7,585 nucleotides of DNA from Microbacterium sp. (GTDB taxonomy: Bacteria; Actinomycetota; Actinomycetes; Actinomycetales; Microbacteriaceae), in contig QFPD01000089.1 of the NCBI GenBank assembly GCA_003248845.1, forward strand, positions 1 to 7,585. The letters are read 5' to 3'. The first letter of the stretch is position 1, and each line of letters begins with the position of its first letter. The translations under genes and the position numbers were made by a program. Below, in pieces: positions 2,332 through 7,585 of the stretch. The notes under the pieces were generated by a model. The model had not been told where the DNA came from. It ran no database searches and saw only the letters and a list, made by a program, of their open reading frames with translations.

Positions 2332-2345
2332 GAACGGCGGCGTGC

Positions 2346-2383
2346 CTGCGGCGCGCCGGGGTGCCTGGGTAGGCTCGGGAGGG
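2346..2383 (+). promoter_or_regulatory. Probable leaderless promoter of the ABC transporter genes
   Basis: A TAGGCT -10 box lies at 2370-2375, and the ATG follows at 2384, eight bases after the box. Transcription would then start at or within a couple of bases of the start codon, a common arrangement in Actinobacteria. The best-placed -35 candidate, CTGCGG at 2346-2351 with an 18-nt spacer, is poor. GGAGG at 2378-2382 sits only one base before the ATG, too close to act as a normal Shine-Dalgarno, which favours leaderless initiation. The site lies in the 52-nt gap after pheT. Confidence 0.5.
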
Positions 2384-3154
2384 ATGAGCGAGACAACCCC
2401 CCTCCCCGCCCTTCATCTGACCGGACTCGTCAAACGCTTCGGCGAGAAGACGGCGGTCGCCGGCGTCGACCTGATCGTTCCCGCCGGATCGTTCTATGGG
2501 CTCGTCGGGCCCAACGGCGCCGGCAAGACCACGACGCTCTCGATGGCGACCGGTCTGCTGCGCCCCGACGCGGGTACGGCGTGGGTGCACGGCGTCGACG
2601 TGTGGGCGGAACCCGCCCGGGCGAAGGCGATGATCGGCAACCTCGCCGACGGCGTGCGCCTGTTCGACAGGCTCACGGGAGAGCAGCTCATCACCTACAC
2701 CGCGATGATGTTCTCGCTCCCACGGCCGGAGATCGCGGGGCGCGTGAGCGACCTCATCGACCTCATGGACCTCCGCGACGCGGCGGGCACGATCGTCGCG
2801 GACTACTCGGCGGGCATGACGAAGAAGGTGGCTCTCGCGTGCGCGCTCGTGCACGCCCCGCGCCTCCTCGTCCTCGACGAGCCGTTCGAATCGGTCGACC
2901 CCGTCTCCGCGGCCAACATCGAGGATGTGCTGCGCTCCTACACGGCATCGGGTGGCACCGTCATCGTCTCGAGCCACTCCATGGACCTCGTCCAGCGCAT
3001 GTGCGACCACGTCGCCGTGATCGCGGCAGGACGCGTGCTCGCCGCCGGCACCGTCGACGAGGTGCGCGGCGACCAATCGCTGCAGGATCGCTTCGTCGCG
3101 CTCGTCGGGGGTCGGCACACGAGCGAGGGGCCCGCGTGGTTGCGACAGTCCTGA
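2384..3154 (+). CDS. ABC-2-type transporter ATP-binding protein
   Basis: This 256-residue cytoplasmic ATPase should power the permease encoded immediately downstream. Visible motifs: Walker A GPNGAGKTT (42-50), a degenerate signature YSAGM (141-145) in place of LSGGQ, Walker B LLVLDEP (161-167), a D-loop-like ESVDP (169-173) and the H-loop VIVSSHS with His198. The Q-loop region reads IGNLADG (84-90) and has no glutamine at the expected place. The signature and length resemble ABC-2 exporter ATPases of the NatA/CcmA-like type. ATG 2384 is chosen because the ABC fold begins just after it and a promoter-like -10 sits directly upstream; GTG 2342 would add 14 residues without domain support. The gene ends inside the start of the permease gene, implying coupled translation. 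The substrate cannot be told from sequence; antibiotic, peptide or lipid export are all possible. Confidence 0.94.
   Translation: MSETTPLPALHLTGLVKRFGEKTAVAGVDLIVPAGSFYGLVGPNGAGKTTTLSMATGLLRPDAGTAWVHGVDVWAEPARAKAMIGNLADGVRLFDRLTGEQLITYTAMMFSLPRPEIAGRVSDLIDLMDLRDAAGTIVADYSAGMTKKVALACALVHAPRLLVLDEPFESVDPVSAANIEDVLRSYTASGGTVIVSSHSMDLVQRMCDHVAVIAAGRVLAAGTVDEVRGDQSLQDRFVALVGGRHTSEGPAWLRQS
3126..3130 (+). promoter_or_regulatory. Ribosome binding site for the permease gene
   Basis: AGGGG lies five bases before the GTG at 3136, inside the 3' end of the ATPase gene. It decides the permease start: the frame is open far upstream (to 2581), but that upstream part is only a shadow of the ATPase gene, and the first hydrophobic segment begins about 24 residues after this GTG. 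Confidence 0.5.
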
Positions 3155-4719
3155 GGCTCCGCTACCGCATCCTCGGCAACACGCTCGCGCGCAGCCCCTG
3201 GCAGCTCGTCGGGTTCTGCTTCGGGGCACTCTGGGGCCTGTCCGCGCTCACGCTCGTCGGGGCGGGGTCGGTCGCACTCGCCGTCGCGGCTGATCTGACT
3301 CTCACTCGCACGATCGCGGTCGTCGCCGGAACGGTCCTGCTGCTCGGCTGGGTCGTCGGGCCGCTTCTCGTCGCGGGGGTCGACACGACGGTGGATGCCG
3401 CGAAGCTCGCGACCTTCCCGTTCACGACGCGGCAGTTGATGACGGTACTCGCTGCGACGGGGGTCACGGGCATTCCGGGCATCGCGACGACGCTCGCGGC
3501 ACTCCTCTCGGTGCTCATGTGGATGCCGTGGCCCGGCGCGGCGATCGTCGCCGTGCCGTGCGTCCTGCTCGCGGTGCTCACGTGCGTCATCGCGACACGG
3601 CTCGCTGCGACCCTGTCCACGGGTCTCGGCGGAAACCGTCGCGGACGTGAGCTGGTCGGCACGATCGTCCTCGCCGTCGTGATCTTCGCCGGCCCGATCC
3701 TGAGCGGCGCCGTGGCGCTTCTGTCGGGGGGTCGCGACCTCGTCGCCCAGCTGCAGCGGATTGCCGGCATCCTCGCGTGGACCCCGCTCGGGGCTGCCTG
3801 GGCGGTGCCCGGCGACGTTGCCGCGGGAGAGGGGCTCCTCGCCGCCGTGCGCTTCGCGATCGCCCTCGCGACGCTCGGTGTGCTCTGGTTCGCGTGGCGT
3901 GCCGCGCTCGATCGGTCGACGGCCACGCCGCCCCGACGTGCGGCCCGCGCCGTCCGCCAGGGTGCGCTCGGCCTCTTCGGAATCATGCCGACCGGCGGGG
4001 TCGGGGCGACGTGGGCGCGCGCGCTTCGCGGGTGGCTGCGCGACCCGCGGTACGTGCGGCAGCTGATTCTCGTCCCCCTCTTCCCCGTGCTGTTCGCGTT
4101 CACGGGCGGTATCGACGGGTTCTTCTTCTCGGCGTCCGCGGTGCTGGTCGCCTTCGTGCTCTGCATCACCGGCTACTCGGACATCTCCTACGACGGCACC
4201 GCGTTCGCCTCGGTGCTCGCGAGCGGGGTGCGAGGCCGACAGGATCGCCTCGGGCGCGTCCTGGGGGCGGCGAGCGTCGGAGTTCCGCTCCTGATCGTCG
4301 TGGCGGTGGTCACCACCATCGTCGGCGGACGCACCGCGTATCTTCCCGCCATCCTCGGCGCTTCGCTCGGACTGCTCCTCGCCGGCTACGCCGTCAGCTC
4401 GGTGTCTTCGGCGCTTCTCGTCACTCCCGTCGCCGCTCCCGGCGATAGCCCGTTCAAGACGGTCCCGGGGCAAACCTTCCTCTCCGGGCTCATGGTGTTC
4501 GTCGTCATGGGCGCGTGCGGACTCCTCGCGCTGCCCGCGCTCATCCTCGGGATCATCGCGGCGACCACCGCCTCGACGGCACTCGGTGTGGTCACCCTCG
4601 TCGTCGGTGTGGTGGTCGGCGTGGCCGAGATCGCGGCGGGCATCGTCGTCGGGGGACGTACCCTCGATCGCACGGGCCCCGATCTCCTCTTGCGGATCAA
4701 AGCCTTCCCGACGAGCTGA
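3136..4719 (+). CDS. ABC transporter permease, polytopic membrane protein
   Basis: This 527-residue protein is the probable membrane half of the transporter whose ATPase precedes it. It is rich in long hydrophobic stretches; I count about eleven to twelve likely membrane segments, among them residues about 24-46 (WQLVGFCFGALWGLSALTL), one around TVLLLGWVVGPLLVAG, one around LVPLFPVLFAFTGG, and the last at VVTLVVGVVVGVAEIAAG close to the C-terminus. Charged loops rich in arginine separate them, such as GNRRGREL and the long segment DRSTATPPRRAARAVRQG mid-protein. It starts at GTG 3136, overlapping the ATPase stop by 19 nt, which implies translational coupling. The length exceeds a typical six-helix ABC-2 permease and suggests a duplicated or fused membrane domain. 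I recognise the general class, not a named family or substrate. An exporter is more likely than an importer, since no solute-binding protein gene is present. Confidence 0.9.
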   Translation: MVATVLRLRYRILGNTLARSPWQLVGFCFGALWGLSALTLVGAGSVALAVAADLTLTRTIAVVAGTVLLLGWVVGPLLVAGVDTTVDAAKLATFPFTTRQLMTVLAATGVTGIPGIATTLAALLSVLMWMPWPGAAIVAVPCVLLAVLTCVIATRLAATLSTGLGGNRRGRELVGTIVLAVVIFAGPILSGAVALLSGGRDLVAQLQRIAGILAWTPLGAAWAVPGDVAAGEGLLAAVRFAIALATLGVLWFAWRAALDRSTATPPRRAARAVRQGALGLFGIMPTGGVGATWARALRGWLRDPRYVRQLILVPLFPVLFAFTGGIDGFFFSASAVLVAFVLCITGYSDISYDGTAFASVLASGVRGRQDRLGRVLGAASVGVPLLIVVAVVTTIVGGRTAYLPAILGASLGLLLAGYAVSSVSSALLVTPVAAPGDSPFKTVPGQTFLSGLMVFVVMGACGLLALPALILGIIAATTASTALGVVTLVVGVVVGVAEIAAGIVVGGRTLDRTGPDLLLRIKAFPTS

Positions 4720-4727
4720 GGAGCGCC

Positions 4728-5618
4728 ATGACGGACGTCCTGATCCTCGGCGGCACCGGATGGCTCGGCGGCCGCGTCGCCGCGGCATGGCTGGATGCCG
4801 GGGCATCCGTCACGTGCCTCGCCCGCGGCGCGCGCGACGCACCGTACGGGGCGCGGCTCGTCCGCGCCGATCGCACCGCGCCCGACGCGTACGACGGCGT
4901 CCGCGGACGGGACTGGGACGAGGTCATCGACGTCTCGTCGCGTGCGGCCCACGTCGCCGCGGCCGCGGACGCGCTGCGGGAGGTCGCGCGCCACGTGACG
5001 TACGTCTCGAGCGTGTCGGTGTACGCCCGCAACGACGAGCCAGGAGCCGATGAGCGCGCCGCGCTCGCCGCACCGGCCGATCCGACCGATGCCGACGCCG
5101 ACACCGACTACGCGGGCAACTACGCGGCGCAGAAGTCCGCCGCCGAGAACGCGATCCGTGCGGTGTTCCCGCACCGTGCGGCGATCGTGCGGCCGGGACT
5201 CATCGTCGGTCCCGGAGACCCGACCGATCGGTTCGGCTACTGGCCGGCGCGCTTCGCCGCCGCGGGGGCCGGACCCGTCCTCGTGCCGGACGCGCCCGAT
5301 GCCCGCGTCCAGGTCATCGACGTCGACGACCTCGCCGACTTCCTCGTCGCGGTCGGCCGTGCCCGCTTCTCCGGAGCGGTCAACGCCGTCGGCGACTCCG
5401 TGCCGCTCGCCGAGGTGCTGCGGCTCGCGCGCACGGCATCCGATCACAGCGGCGACGTCGTGCGTGCGTCGCCGGAGGAGCTGCGTGCGCGGGACGTCGA
5501 CCACTGGGCCGGCCCCGATCGCTGCCGTTGTGGCTGCCCGCGGATGCGCCCGGGTTCGCGACCCGGTCGAACGCGACATACCGACTGCTCGGCGGTGCGC
5601 TGCGGCCACTTGCCGTGA
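4728..5618 (+). CDS. NAD-dependent epimerase/dehydratase-like protein, frameshifted near its C-terminus
   Basis: This is a Rossmann-fold protein of the extended or atypical short-chain dehydrogenase class. The nucleotide-binding loop is GGTGWLG (residues 8-14, pattern GxxGxxG). The strand YVSSVSVYA carries the usual serine region, and the catalytic YxxxK is YAAQK (Tyr132, Lys136). The later motif RPGLIVGPGDPTDRFGYW is typical of these enzymes. The start ATG 4728 has GAGGAG at 4718-4723 overlapping the permease stop, so it is probably co-transcribed with the transporter genes. The natural frame appears to break at the C-run 5513-5516: after DHWAGPD the reading becomes a cysteine- and arginine-rich tail (CRCGCPRMRPG) and stops at 5618, while a sensible C-terminus continues in another frame to 5728. 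With one C restored the protein would be 333 residues. The NAD(P)-binding part is intact; the substrate is unknown. It may be a real pseudogene or a sequencing error. Confidence 0.85.
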   Translation: MTDVLILGGTGWLGGRVAAAWLDAGASVTCLARGARDAPYGARLVRADRTAPDAYDGVRGRDWDEVIDVSSRAAHVAAAADALREVARHVTYVSSVSVYARNDEPGADERAALAAPADPTDADADTDYAGNYAAQKSAAENAIRAVFPHRAAIVRPGLIVGPGDPTDRFGYWPARFAAAGAGPVLVPDAPDARVQVIDVDDLADFLVAVGRARFSGAVNAVGDSVPLAEVLRLARTASDHSGDVVRASPEELRARDVDHWAGPDRCRCGCPRMRPGSRPGRTRHTDCSAVRCGHLP

Positions 5619-5728
5619 CGATCGCGCGCGTCCTCGACGACGAGAGGGCGCGGGGACTCGAGCGGCCGCGTGCCGCGGGGCTCACCCGGGCCGACGAGCT
5701 CGCCCTGATCTCCTCCCGGGAGCAGTGA
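5519..5728 (+). pseudogene. Out-of-frame C-terminal part of the epimerase-like gene
   Basis: Read from TCG at 5519, this frame gives SLPLWLPADAPGFATRSN and then a plausible helical C-terminus (LRPLAVTIARVLDDERARGL, later GLTRADELALISSREQ) ending at TGA 5726-5728. It continues the epimerase-like protein directly: inserting one C in the run at 5513-5516 gives GPRSLPLWLP across the junction, which from memory matches the C-terminal region of such actinobacterial epimerase-like proteins. No ribosome binding site or sensible independent start was found, so it is not treated as a separate gene. The whole original gene would span 4728-5728. Confidence 0.8.
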
Positions 5729-5738
5729 GCACGCGGAT

Positions 5739-5768
5739 TTGCCTCCCGCGCGGCTCCCGCGCTATCGT
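5739..5768 (+). promoter_or_regulatory. Promoter of the arginine operon leader
   Basis: TTGCCT (5739-5744) and TATCGT (5763-5768) are separated by 18 nt and match the housekeeping consensus TTGACA/TATAAT at four and three positions, including the TAnnnT core. The predicted transcription start, seven bases after the -10 box, falls on A5775, which is the A of the ATG of a short leader ORF. This is the best promoter in the window and lies 10 nt after the end of the disrupted epimerase gene, where a new operon is expected to begin. Confidence 0.65.
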
Positions 5769-5774
5769 CGCGGC

Positions 5775-5846
5775 ATGCTCTCGGCCACGACCACCGCTCC
5801 TGTGGTGTTCCGTGCGCGCCGACGCCTGGGCGACCGCCGACTCTAG
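5775..5846 (+). CDS. Candidate arginine leader peptide upstream of argC
   Basis: This short ORF encodes 23 residues, starts with ATG at the predicted +1 of the promoter (leaderless) and ends with TAG. Its second half reads RARRRLGDRRL: six of the last eleven residues are arginine, with codons CGT 5811, CGC 5817, CGA 5820, CGC 5823, CGC 5835 and CGA 5838. The first half (MLSATTTAPVVF) has none. Position, size and composition fit a leader peptide that senses charged tRNA-Arg ahead of an arginine-biosynthesis operon, and a terminator-like hairpin begins in its stop codon. Caveat: GC-rich DNA makes arginine codons common by chance, so composition alone proves little; the coincidence with promoter, hairpin and argC is the argument. 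No homologue could be checked. Confidence 0.55.
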   Translation: MLSATTTAPVVFRARRRLGDRRL

Positions 5847-5900
5847 GCGGCACCGCTTCTCCTCGCCATCGGCGGGTCGAGGTGCGGGTGTCGCCGTCTT
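5846..5900 (+). terminator. Terminator-like stem-loop, candidate attenuator before argC
   Basis: The 5' arm GGCGGCACCGC (5846-5856) pairs with GCGGGTGTCGCC (5884-5895) in 11 pairs with one G-U and one bulged G at 5886. Above an asymmetric internal loop, CCTCG (5861-5865) pairs with CGAGG (5878-5882) around a 12-nt loop. It is followed by GTCTTCC (5896-5902), a weak T-containing tract; actinobacterial intrinsic terminators often lack a long U-run. It lies between the leader ORF stop and argC, so it would terminate or slow transcription before the structural genes. The pairing was done by eye; no folding energy was computed. Confidence 0.5.
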
Positions 5901-5909
5901 CCGGCCCTT

Positions 5910-5926
5910 GCCGCGTCACGAGCGGC
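5910..5926 (+). other. Small second hairpin before argC
   Basis: GCCGC (5910-5914) and GCGGC (5922-5926) pair around a seven-base loop GTCACGA, ending 26 nt before the argC ATG. It could be part of the leader RNA structure or a chance pairing in GC-rich DNA. No U-run follows, so it is not called a terminator. Confidence 0.3.
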
Positions 5927-5931
5927 GTCAC
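5913..5931 (+). repeat. GCGTCAC direct repeat upstream of argC
   Basis: GCGTCAC occurs at 5913-5919 and again at 5925-5931, with starts 12 nt apart, in the last 40 bases before argC. The spacing is near one helical turn, so a repressor half-site pair is conceivable, but the repeat does not resemble the AT-rich ArgR boxes known from other bacteria. It overlaps the small hairpin at 5910-5926. Confidence 0.3.
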
Positions 5932-5940
5932 CACAGACAA

Positions 5941-5952
5941 TAAGGTTGAGAG
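5941..5952 (+). promoter_or_regulatory. argC start region: weak RBS or second -10 box
   Basis: TAAGGTTGAGAG directly precedes the argC ATG. AAGG (5942-5945) can serve as a weak Shine-Dalgarno with 7-nt spacing. The same bases also form TAAGGT (5941-5946), a TAnnnT box with the same 6-nt gap to ATG as the leader ORF has, so a second leaderless start is possible. No -35 box is seen at 17-19 nt spacing, which favours the RBS reading. Confidence 0.4.
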
Positions 5953-7017
5953 ATGACCTATTCGGTCGCCGTTTCCGGCGCTTCCGGCTATGCGGGCGGC
6001 GAGATCCTGCGCCTGCTCGCCGCACATCCCGACATCGAGATCACGACGGTGACCGCGCATTCCAACGCGGGTCAGCCGCTCGCGCTGCACCAGCCGCACC
6101 TTCGCTCGCTCGCGCACCTCGAGCTCCGGGACACGACGCCCGACGTCCTCGCCGGGCACGACATCGTGTTCCTCGCGCTGCCGCACGGCCAGTCCGGGCA
6201 ATACACCGACGCGCTCGCCGATGCGCCCCTCATCATCGATGCCGGCGCGGATCACCGGCTGACGTCGGCGGACGCTTGGGCGCAGTTCTACGGCGGCCCG
6301 TTCCACGATCCGTGGACCTACGGAGTGCCCGAGCTGCCGATCGGCGGCCTCGGCGACCCGAGCAGCGCGCAGCAGCGGGCGCACCTTGCCGGAGCGACGC
6401 GGATCGCCGCGCCCGGCTGCAATGCCTCGACGGTCGCCCTGAGCCTCGCCCCCGGCGTCGCGGCCGGCGTCATCGACCCGTCCGACATCGTGACGGTTCT
6501 GGCGGTCGGCCCTTCGGGGGCGGGCAAGAGCCTGAAGACGAATCTCCTGGCATCCGAGATCCTCGGCACCGCGAACCCGTACGCCGTCGGCGGCACGCAC
6601 CGGCACATCCCCGAAATCCGGCAGGCGCTCATCGCGGCCGGCGCTGACGGCGACGTGCGGATCTCCTTCACGCCGGTGATCGTTCCGATGGCGCGGGGAA
6701 TCCTTGCGACGTCGACGGCGCCGATCGCCGCGGGAGTCACCGACAGGCAGCTCCGGGATGCCTGGGAACAGGCGTACGGTGACGAGACCTTCGTGCAGCT
6801 CCTGCCGGAGGGCCAGTTCCCCCGCACCGCCGACGTCCTCGGCGCCAATACCGCGCTCCTCGGCCTCGCGATCGACCGCGCCGCGAACCGCGTCGTGGTC
6901 GTCGCCGCCGTCGACAACCTGGTCAAGGGCACCGCGGGTGCGGCGATCCAGTCGATGAACATCGCCCTCGGCCTCCCCGAAGACCGGGGCCTGACCGTGA
7001 ACGGAGTCGCACCGTGA
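5953..7017 (+). CDS. argC: N-acetyl-gamma-glutamyl-phosphate reductase
   Basis: This 354-residue cytoplasmic enzyme reduces N-acetylglutamyl-5-phosphate to the semialdehyde with NADPH, the third step of arginine biosynthesis. The N-terminal dinucleotide-binding loop is GASGYAGGE (residues 9-17). The substrate segment [10 protein letters not shown] follows. The catalytic cysteine is Cys156 in APGCNAS, and the conserved histidine segment HRHIPEI begins at His216. The C-terminal [16 protein letters not shown] is the family's standard ending region, so the gene is complete, at a length normal for the common bacterial form. The start ATG follows directly on TAAGGTTGAGAG and gives the usual short stretch before the GASGYAGGE loop. 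It is preceded by the leader ORF and hairpin, and its stop overlaps argJ by 4 nt. The arg genes seem to have their own promoter at 5739 instead of relying on the upstream genes. Confidence 0.98.
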
Positions 7018-7585
7018 GCAGCACCGCACAGGGATTCTCTGCAGAGGGAATCTCTGCAGAGGGAGTGACCGCACCCGCGGGATTCGAGGCGGCGGGCGTC
7101 GCCGCAGGGCTCAAATCCACCGGCAACCCCGATGTCGCCGTCGTCGTCAACCGCGGGCCGATGAAGGTCGGCGCTGCCGTCTTCACGTCGAACCGGGCGA
7201 AGGCGAACCCGATCCTCTGGTCGCAGCAGGCCATTGCGGACGGCGTCGTCGAGGCGGTCGTGTTGAACTCCGGTGGGGCGAACTGCTTCACCGGCGCTTT
7301 CGGCTTCCAGACGACGCACCAGACCGCCGAGAAGGCGGGGGAGATCCTCGGCGTCAGCGCGGGCGACGTGCTGGTGTGCTCGACGGGCCTGATCGGATCG
7401 GGCGACGAGGTCTTCCGCGGCAAGGTCCTGGCCGGAACCGAGGCGGCGATCGACGCGCTCTCATCCGCAGGGGGGGCGGACGCCGCCCGCGCCATCATGA
7501 CGACCGACACCGTGTCCAAAACGGTCACGTTCCACGGCGACGGCTGGACGATCGGGGCGATGGCGAAGGGCGCGGGGATGCTCGC
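7014..7585 (+). CDS. argJ: Bifunctional ornithine acetyltransferase/N-acetylglutamate synthase, 3'-truncated
   Basis: ArgJ transfers the acetyl group from N-acetylornithine to glutamate, recycling it in the arginine pathway; some family members also use acetyl-CoA. The visible 190 codons hold the N-terminal (alpha-chain) part: [18 protein letters not shown] near the start, [10 protein letters not shown] (85-94), CSTGLIG (122-128) and MAKGAGML (183-190) at the window edge. The autocleavage threonine expected just after that is outside the window. The GTG start overlaps the argC TGA in a GTGA arrangement, with CGGAG at 7002-7006 spaced seven bases upstream. This start gives an unusual 17-residue extension containing a duplicated five-residue unit ([10 protein letters not shown]). 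An alternative GTG at 7065 would give a start nearer to that of many relatives but has a poorly spaced RBS. Confidence 0.97.
7032..7061 (+). repeat. 15-bp tandem repeat in the 5' end of argJ
   Basis: GGATTCTCTGCAGAG (7032-7046) is followed at once by GGAATCTCTGCAGAG (7047-7061), differing at one base. The unit is five codons long, so the frame is kept and the protein gains [10 protein letters not shown]. Each unit contains the perfect 10-bp palindrome CTCTGCAGAG (7037-7046 and 7052-7061). The tract is AT-richer than its surroundings and looks like a recent duplication by slippage. Confidence 0.85.

Follow-up and report, generated by a model that had tools for sequence, protein, structure and literature searches.

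A predicted leaderless, arginine-rich leader peptide and a covarying hairpin upstream of argC in Microbacteriaceae, a family in which ArgR was not detected

The window, i.e. the whole stretch of 7,585 nt of Microbacterium DNA that was analysed, carries pheT (1-2331), a gene for an ABC transporter ATPase (2342-3154), a gene for an NAD-dependent epimerase (within 4515-5728), argC (5953-7017, forward strand) and, cut by the window end, argJ (7014-7583, forward strand), as read from the ORF list with Pfam support for each. The epimerase gene seems split over two frames near position 5520 (ORFs 4515-5618 and 5528-5728), through a sequencing error or a real frameshift, and the alignment of one related locus (L001) spans this gene with gaps. 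Between the epimerase gene and argC lies the locus studied here, all features of which are on the forward strand. A -35 region, ATTTGCCT (5737-5744, with the hexamer TTGCCT at 5739-5744), is separated by 18 nt from a -10 element, TATCGT (5763-5768), which stands 6 nt upstream of the ATG of a 23-codon ORF encoding MLSATTTAPVVFRARRRLGDRRL (5775-5846, stop codon included); both its letters and its conservation lead us to predict that this ORF is leaderless. Its last eleven residues, RARRRLGDRRL, contain six arginines, encoded by a first cluster at codons 13 and 15-17 (CGT and CGC CGA CGC; 5811-5825) and by two last Arg codons, CGC CGA (5835-5840), and its stop codon is followed by 106 nt up to the argC ATG at 5953. 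A preliminary description of this DNA had put forward the TTGCCT-N18-TATCGT promoter, a predicted transcription start on the ATG of the 23-codon ORF and the distance of 106 nt to argC, and the letters agree on every point. A simple sigma-70 scan that is stricter on the consensus letters called no promoter at this position in the window. The predicted folding of 5775-5980 was better than that of 199 out of 200 shuffles (z -2.7), and no Rfam model, T-box included, matched the window at gathering score.

For comparison we took the best 80 loci in a scan with the ArgC of the window, 72 of which are named Microbacterium (from here on the Microbacterium-type loci). Upstream of argC, a TANNNT element 6 or 7 nt before an ATG that opens a short ORF with an Arg-rich end was present in 79 of the 80. 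In these 79 loci and the window together the spacing was 6 nt in 76 cases and 7 nt in four, and the -35 stretch ATTTGC was kept as well, its six bases each occurring in 63 to 77 of the 79 loci. A strict scan (at least five Arg in 12 codons, an ORF of 8-60 codons, leaderless spacing) was positive in 79 of the 81 sequences formed by the 80 loci and the window, the misses being L037 and L052. The one locus of the 80 without a leader, L037, resembles its sister L036 only just before argC, as judged by eye. Among 20 genomes, a motif for the last codons (at most one mismatch) had a single occurrence in 17 and two in one, where the second copy is without a stop codon, and it was absent from two. Conservation of a short ORF with a terminal Arg run, combined with drift of its nucleotides, had been proposed as the signature to look for. 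The ORF and its run are indeed conserved, here as well as in roughly half of the further family loci described below; drift is seen in the N-terminal half of the leader, with the Arg-rich end kept, and is lacking in the last two Arg codons, which read CGC CGA in 79 out of 79 Microbacterium-type sequences (L050 left out). This invariance implies that part of the Arg run is constrained at the RNA level. The observation of the leader itself is confirmed: it is exact and not due to chance.

The leader is spread well beyond Microbacterium. Of 199 family genomes, 190 gave an ArgC match, and the 400 nt upstream of argC were collected from 142 further loci among the matches listed, with some 40 of the 190, mostly weaker ArgC matches, falling outside this set and L275 left out because the contig end was too close. 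Among these listed matches, the strict scan found a leader in 74 of the 142 loci, and a relaxed scan (at least four Arg, with the frames in L291 and L296 removed as lying inside pheT) found one in 82 and none in 60. With the strict scan, 18 of 2840 dinucleotide shuffles, one of 142 reverse strands and none of 57 argC loci from order members outside the family were positive. The 82 leaders of the relaxed scan and those of L112-L116 make up 87 other family leaders, and with 80 of the Microbacterium-type a total of 167. Start codons among the 87 are ATG (54) and GTG (33), and the -10 element lies at 6 nt in 67, at 7 nt in 18 and at 8 nt in two. The peptides differ widely (e.g. MAIFDTSVSAQGFAPSALRRRRTSSERR and MGQSQGVSGELRLRRLRRARRISATPRR), with lengths ranging from 18 to 43 codons, and the peptide of the window and three other leaders gave no match up to E = 1 in Pfam, DUF2618 (PF10940) included, a search that peptides as short as these can escape.

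Some observations on neighbouring arrangements were made along the way. In several family loci without an Arg leader (L284, L285, L286, L301, L314, L321 and others), argC itself looks leaderless, with TAGATT or TACATT 6-7 nt before an ATG. In L324-L342, the argG gene is located apart from the arg operon; upstream of argG no Arg leader was found in these 19 loci, of which L340 and L342 have misplaced starts, and most carry a TAGACT-like -10 element at leaderless distance. In L115, the stretch from the 3' arm of the hairpin discussed next up to argC appears tandemly duplicated (by eye).

We found a single conserved stem when the region from the ORF end to argC was analysed with RNAalifold in 76 sequences. 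This predicted hairpin, H1, pairs GGCGAC.CC with GG.GTCGCC; in the window, the 5' arm GGCGGCACC (5846-5854) would form nine pairs with the 3' arm GGTGTCGCC (5887-5895), and the assignment of both arms rests on the RNAalifold result, on covariation and on the letters. In the RNAalifold model H1 begins with the final nucleotide of the stop codon, and it is 40 to 90 nt long overall (164 sequences measured). In a first count the arms had been picked by pairing, which biased it, and it was replaced by one in which the arms were placed by motif, in 158 of the 167 leaders, 132 of them unique (L050, L058, L187, L200, L197, L217, L256, L266 and L304 left out). In this count, pairs 7-11 were formed in 417 of 660 cells versus 365 +/- 9 (best 390) in 2000 re-dealings, with 80 two-sided changes versus 49 +/- 5 (best 67); these are not probabilities, since re-dealing does not remove relatedness. 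In a thinned set of 53 sequences, 178 of 265 pairs were formed versus 142 +/- 6, with 55 two-sided changes versus 31 +/- 4, and none of 2000 re-dealings reached it. The outer pairs 1-6 are uninformative because they are nearly invariant (746 of 792 paired, one two-sided change, no excess over re-dealing). Sliding the arms lowered the formed pairs from 417 to between 263 and 347, with two-sided changes still up to 78 at a slide of +2; the two-sided count thus proves little by itself and it is the pairing count that carries weight. Telling compensatory cases are GGCGCCACTTT with AAAGTGTCGCC (L308) and GGCGTCGCCTCG with CGAGGTGCCGCC (L259 and L267). A second hairpin around GTCGCC was considered and dropped: its stems vary from 3 to 12 pairs, its arms had been picked for best pairing, its register shifts and RNAalifold omits it. 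Neither the pairing comparison nor RNAalifold revealed a conserved alternative 'off' hairpin.

The position of H1 relative to the Arg codons is nearly fixed. The last Arg codon lies 5 nt from the H1 arm in 141 of 165 leaders and 2 nt from it in 22; the in-frame placement of the arm permits no gaps other than -1, 2, 5 and 8. In 127 of the 165 the stop codon adjoins the arm, and 106 of these 127 have the 5-nt gap; in the other 38 the frame runs through the arm for several codons (e.g. ending in RLSATPRR), and the gap is again 5 nt in 35. The stop codon moves and the gap from Arg codon to arm hardly does, suggesting that it is the step from the Arg codons to the hairpin that is held, not the stop. 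In addition, CGCC stands exactly 7 nt upstream of the H1 arm in 132 of 165 leaders (79 of 79 of the Microbacterium-type and 53 of 86 others), versus 48 +/- 6 (best 64) in codon shuffles, and mostly stems from the last Arg codons. The Arg codons could therefore themselves pair with the H1 arm in the absence of a ribosome; in the window, CGCC at 5835-5838 is able to pair with 5846-5849 across a loop of 7 nt.

Codon use in the leaders is skewed. In the Microbacterium-type leaders 492 of 500 Arg codons are CGC, CGA or CGU and only seven (1.4%) are CGG, and CGA makes up 32%, whereas argC in these 80 loci uses CGG for 29.6% and CGA for 2.6% of its Arg codons. Of the Arg codons in the 87 remaining leaders, 7.6% are CGG. 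Separate tRNA-Arg genes with the anticodons ACG, CCG, CCT and TCT were identified in genome G018 (in 23 of 30 tRNA loci taken, out of 46 tRNA matches). The ACG tRNA, with inosine, decodes CGU, CGC and CGA, and together with the avoidance of CGG this suggests that the leader would respond chiefly to a single isoacceptor. RNA pairing constraints could account for part of the avoidance. The last 13 leader codons carry a weak coding signature, with a pN/pS of 0.89 versus 1.51 and 0.99 in the shifted frames.

How argC itself is started appears to differ between leader-bearing species and their relatives. Where a leader is present, argC nearly always has a Shine-Dalgarno sequence (4 nt or longer) in front of it: all 80 Microbacterium-type loci show one, as do 85 of the 87 others (165 of 167 together). 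The sequence is seen in 28 of the 60 leader-less family loci and in two of the 43 order loci in which the argC start could be placed (14 of the 57 could not). This would agree with a long message in species that carry the leader, whereas argC of the order relatives would be leaderless. In the window, TAAGGT (5941-5946) holds the Shine-Dalgarno sequence AAGG (5942-5945) and can also be read as a -10 element at leaderless distance. All 80 Microbacterium-type loci keep TANNNT at such a distance from argC, as do 66 of the 87 other loci with a leader, which makes possible a second promoter at argC that bypasses the leader; in all 80 loci of the Microbacterium-type the element occurs together with a Shine-Dalgarno sequence. 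An intrinsic terminator with a U-tract was dropped as a general feature: none was found within the window, and at least five T in eight bases between leader stop and argC occur in only nine of the 167 leaders. The stretch after H1 (5896-5938 in the window) is on average rich in C and poor in G, with C exceeding G in 156 of 158 leaders (means 45% C and 24% G), which would suit Rho and makes this stretch a candidate Rho loading region.

The family seems to do without the usual regulator of this pathway. The preliminary description had remarked that arginine operons are mostly described as ArgR-controlled, and the contrast turned out sharper than it had supposed: a search for Arg_repressor_C (PF02863) detected ArgR in 181 of 198 genomes of the order but in none of the 199 that were searched from the family. 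Within 60 chosen genomes it was present in 29, namely in none of the 31 of the leader clade (including G020, the genome of the leader-less L037) and in all 29 others. Of the 17 order genomes without ArgR, 12 were also drawn in the family search, G004 has a locus named Microbacterium, G475 has an ArgC with 83% identity, and G369, G488 and G462 gave no ArgC match. All 57 order control loci come from genomes with ArgR, and in these relatives the argC start is mostly directly preceded by TGTATAGTTATGCA or a similar sequence; their argC promoters combine a -10 element at leaderless distance with an overlapping sequence that looks like an ArgR box. A single ArgR-box-like pattern, drawn by eye from the order loci, was present at argC in 45 of these 57 loci and in none of 223 others, i.e. 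142 of the family (among the matches listed) and 81 of the Microbacterium-type (window included). In G018, the operon runs argC, J, B, D, F, H without interruption, and argR and argG are absent from it. That the attenuator proposed below stands where ArgR control stood is the best reading of these comparisons.

A tree of 82 ArgC proteins picked from those retrieved (43 from loci with a leader, 22 from loci without and 17 from ArgR-bearing relatives) places the ArgR-bearing relatives on one side of a branch with a support of 100/100. From this pattern, the loss of ArgR seems to date from the origin of the family or earlier. Leader presence requires seven changes on this tree, at least three of them on well-supported branches; of the groups without a leader, some fall within leader-bearing ones and others lie near the base. 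A single gain of the leader is not supported as such; the leader looks old within the family, with several losses. In five loci (L239, L278, L283, L291 and L296) pheT lies directly upstream of argC and a separate Arg-rich leader is absent, and the 3' end of pheT (encoding a protein that ends in RFGATLRD) gives an arm like that of H1. When leader tails were compared with the end of pheT, 99 of 130 best matches shared a single register, but only 14 of 130 exceeded all 60 codon shuffles. With so weak a resemblance, descent of the leader tail from pheT is retained only as an idea.

The reading that we consider probable is that of a leaderless, ribosome-stalling attenuator, in which the Arg codons of the leader sense a shortage of Arg-tRNA, free H1 and keep the argC operon on. 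The transcript would begin on the ATG of the leader and continue into argC. When charged Arg-tRNA is short, the ribosome would stall on the Arg codons, and a ribosome on the first of these would leave the H1 arm free, so that H1 could form and the argC operon be expressed. With ample arginine, the ribosome would reach the stop codon and cover the H1 arm in both layouts of the frame, preventing H1; that it covers the arm follows from the usual footprint sizes of ribosomes. After the ribosome at the stop, the local CGCC:GGCG pairing could replace H1. In the absence of H1 the message would be cut short or left untranslated, and because there is no U-tract terminator, the likeliest cut would be by Rho on the C-rich stretch upstream of argC, which is a guess. 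The preliminary description had interpreted the ORF as a sensor of Arg-tRNA that controls argCJ, and this interpretation is partly supported. Beyond the reasons given there, it draws on the covarying predicted hairpin at its nearly fixed distance, on the avoidance of CGG and on the missing ArgR; against it speak the lack of a U-tract and of a conserved 'off' hairpin, the near-invariance of the outer H1 pairs, the weak coding signature, the possible second promoter, the leader-less argG and the 60 of 142 family loci that have no leader in a family where ArgR was not found either. A more specific history, in which the family, after losing ArgR, placed the arg operon under a leaderless attenuator responding to a single tRNA-Arg isoacceptor (ACG), took its hairpin arm from the 3' end of pheT and uses Rho for the cut, is tentative and, taken as a whole, doubtful.

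Other explanations have to be weighed against the Arg-tRNA-sensing attenuator. That GC-rich DNA yields Arg codons for free, and that the ORF arose by chance, is a natural thought in a window full of long spurious Arg-rich ORFs, but it is scarcely credible in view of the shuffled and reverse-strand controls, the conserved -10 and -35 spacing and the covariation of the hairpin. It is also conceivable that most argC transcription starts at a leaderless promoter directly in front of the gene (TAAGGT, 5941-5946), the upstream ORF lying on a short separate transcript with another function or none. The retention of TANNNT in front of argC speaks for this, as does its presence 6 or 7 nt from argC in 36 of the 43 order loci with a placed start, most of which look leaderless. 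Yet 21 of the 87 other leader loci have lost the element and keep the Shine-Dalgarno sequence, which would be useless to a leaderless argC, and the covarying arms of H1 extend from the end of the ORF into the intergenic stretch, so that we judge this explanation unlikely.

Two further possibilities accept the leader and assign it a different action, and we hold both to be improbable. The leader might merely load ribosomes, raising argC translation by reinitiation or by shielding from Rho, with no sensing of arginine, in line with the leaderless spacing, the Shine-Dalgarno sequence of argC and the C-rich stretch upstream of it. Reinitiation at leader peptides is the subject of PMC4833913, the text of which mentions neither arginine nor argC nor Microbacteriaceae. 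Such loading leaves unexplained why the leader is rich in Arg, why the gap between the Arg codons and H1 is nearly fixed, why CGG is avoided and why the leader coincides with a missing ArgR. Alternatively, the nascent Arg-rich peptide could stall the ribosome through bound free arginine or ornithine instead of through lack of Arg-tRNA. The bacterial SpeFL is an arrest peptide of this kind, and a positively charged C-terminus is kept in the leader loci. A fungal arginine arrest peptide exists as well (excerpts of PMC11550727). Against such arrest, the residues other than Arg and the length of the leader vary, the frame either stops within one codon after the last Arg codon or continues for several, and an arrest peptide has no need to avoid CGG.

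The sequence comparisons are best explained by a real and conserved switch for arginine synthesis that is based on a leader peptide and present across much of the family. If true, arginine biosynthesis, for which ArgR is the usual account, would here be under an attenuator, and the lineage would be a clear instance of a protein repressor exchanged for a peptide-RNA switch, whose leader is predicted to begin with the very first nucleotide of the message. As ArgR was found in none of the family genomes searched, the leader offers a concrete answer to how arginine synthesis may be controlled in many of these bacteria. The leader is present in well over a hundred loci (79 of the 80 Microbacterium-type and 82 of the 142 others among the matches listed), giving variation enough to dissect its geometry.

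In the literature searched, with most subscription papers outside its scope, we found no earlier report of such an arginine leader. The leaders of the trp, his, leu and phe operons are ribosome-mediated transcription attenuators, and the arg leader resembles them in having a short ORF rich in codons for the end product just upstream of the operon and possibly also in RNA arms near the ORF end that could pair in mutually exclusive ways. It differs in the amino acid, arginine, in the leaderless spacing, in the absence of a U-tract terminator and in that its stop codon moves and the gap between codons and hairpin hardly does. With the fungal arginine attenuator peptide the arg leader shares an upstream ORF tied to arginine but not the run of Arg codons, on which the fungal peptide is, to our knowledge, not built. 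The fungal upstream ORF answers to arginine by arginine-dependent arrest of the nascent peptide, as described in excerpts of PMC11550727. Control by ArgR has the same target, argC; the order relatives have ArgR and mostly a box, whereas the family has neither in the loci and genomes searched.

Nearest in build are the leaderless short ORFs of mycobacteria that end in a cluster of Cys codons and precede biosynthesis genes (PMC4633059), which Canestrari (2020) also treated as leaderless cysteine-rich ORFs, as cited in excerpts of PMC9094748. These concern cysteine and other genes, and the excerpts of PMC4633059 do not mention a covarying hairpin at a fixed distance. Seliverstov (2005) described actinobacterial Cys leaders without conserved terminators and proposed Rho (PMC1262725); the lack of a conserved terminator and the suggested part for Rho are shared with the arg leader. 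The genomes of that study include Leifsonia xyli, and it reports no conserved RNA structure upstream of arginine operons. In action, the nearest worked-out relative is orf34 of speF in Salmonella, where a pause at two consecutive Arg codons lets a hairpin downstream of the stop codon form, a ribosome at the stop has been proposed to block that hairpin, and Rho-dependent premature termination is involved (excerpts of PMC6386406). The same excerpts place orf34 in gamma-proteobacteria, in front of a polyamine gene, with a start led by a Shine-Dalgarno sequence and a conserved DUF2618 core, whereas the arg leader has the arginine biosynthesis operon as its target and looks leaderless.
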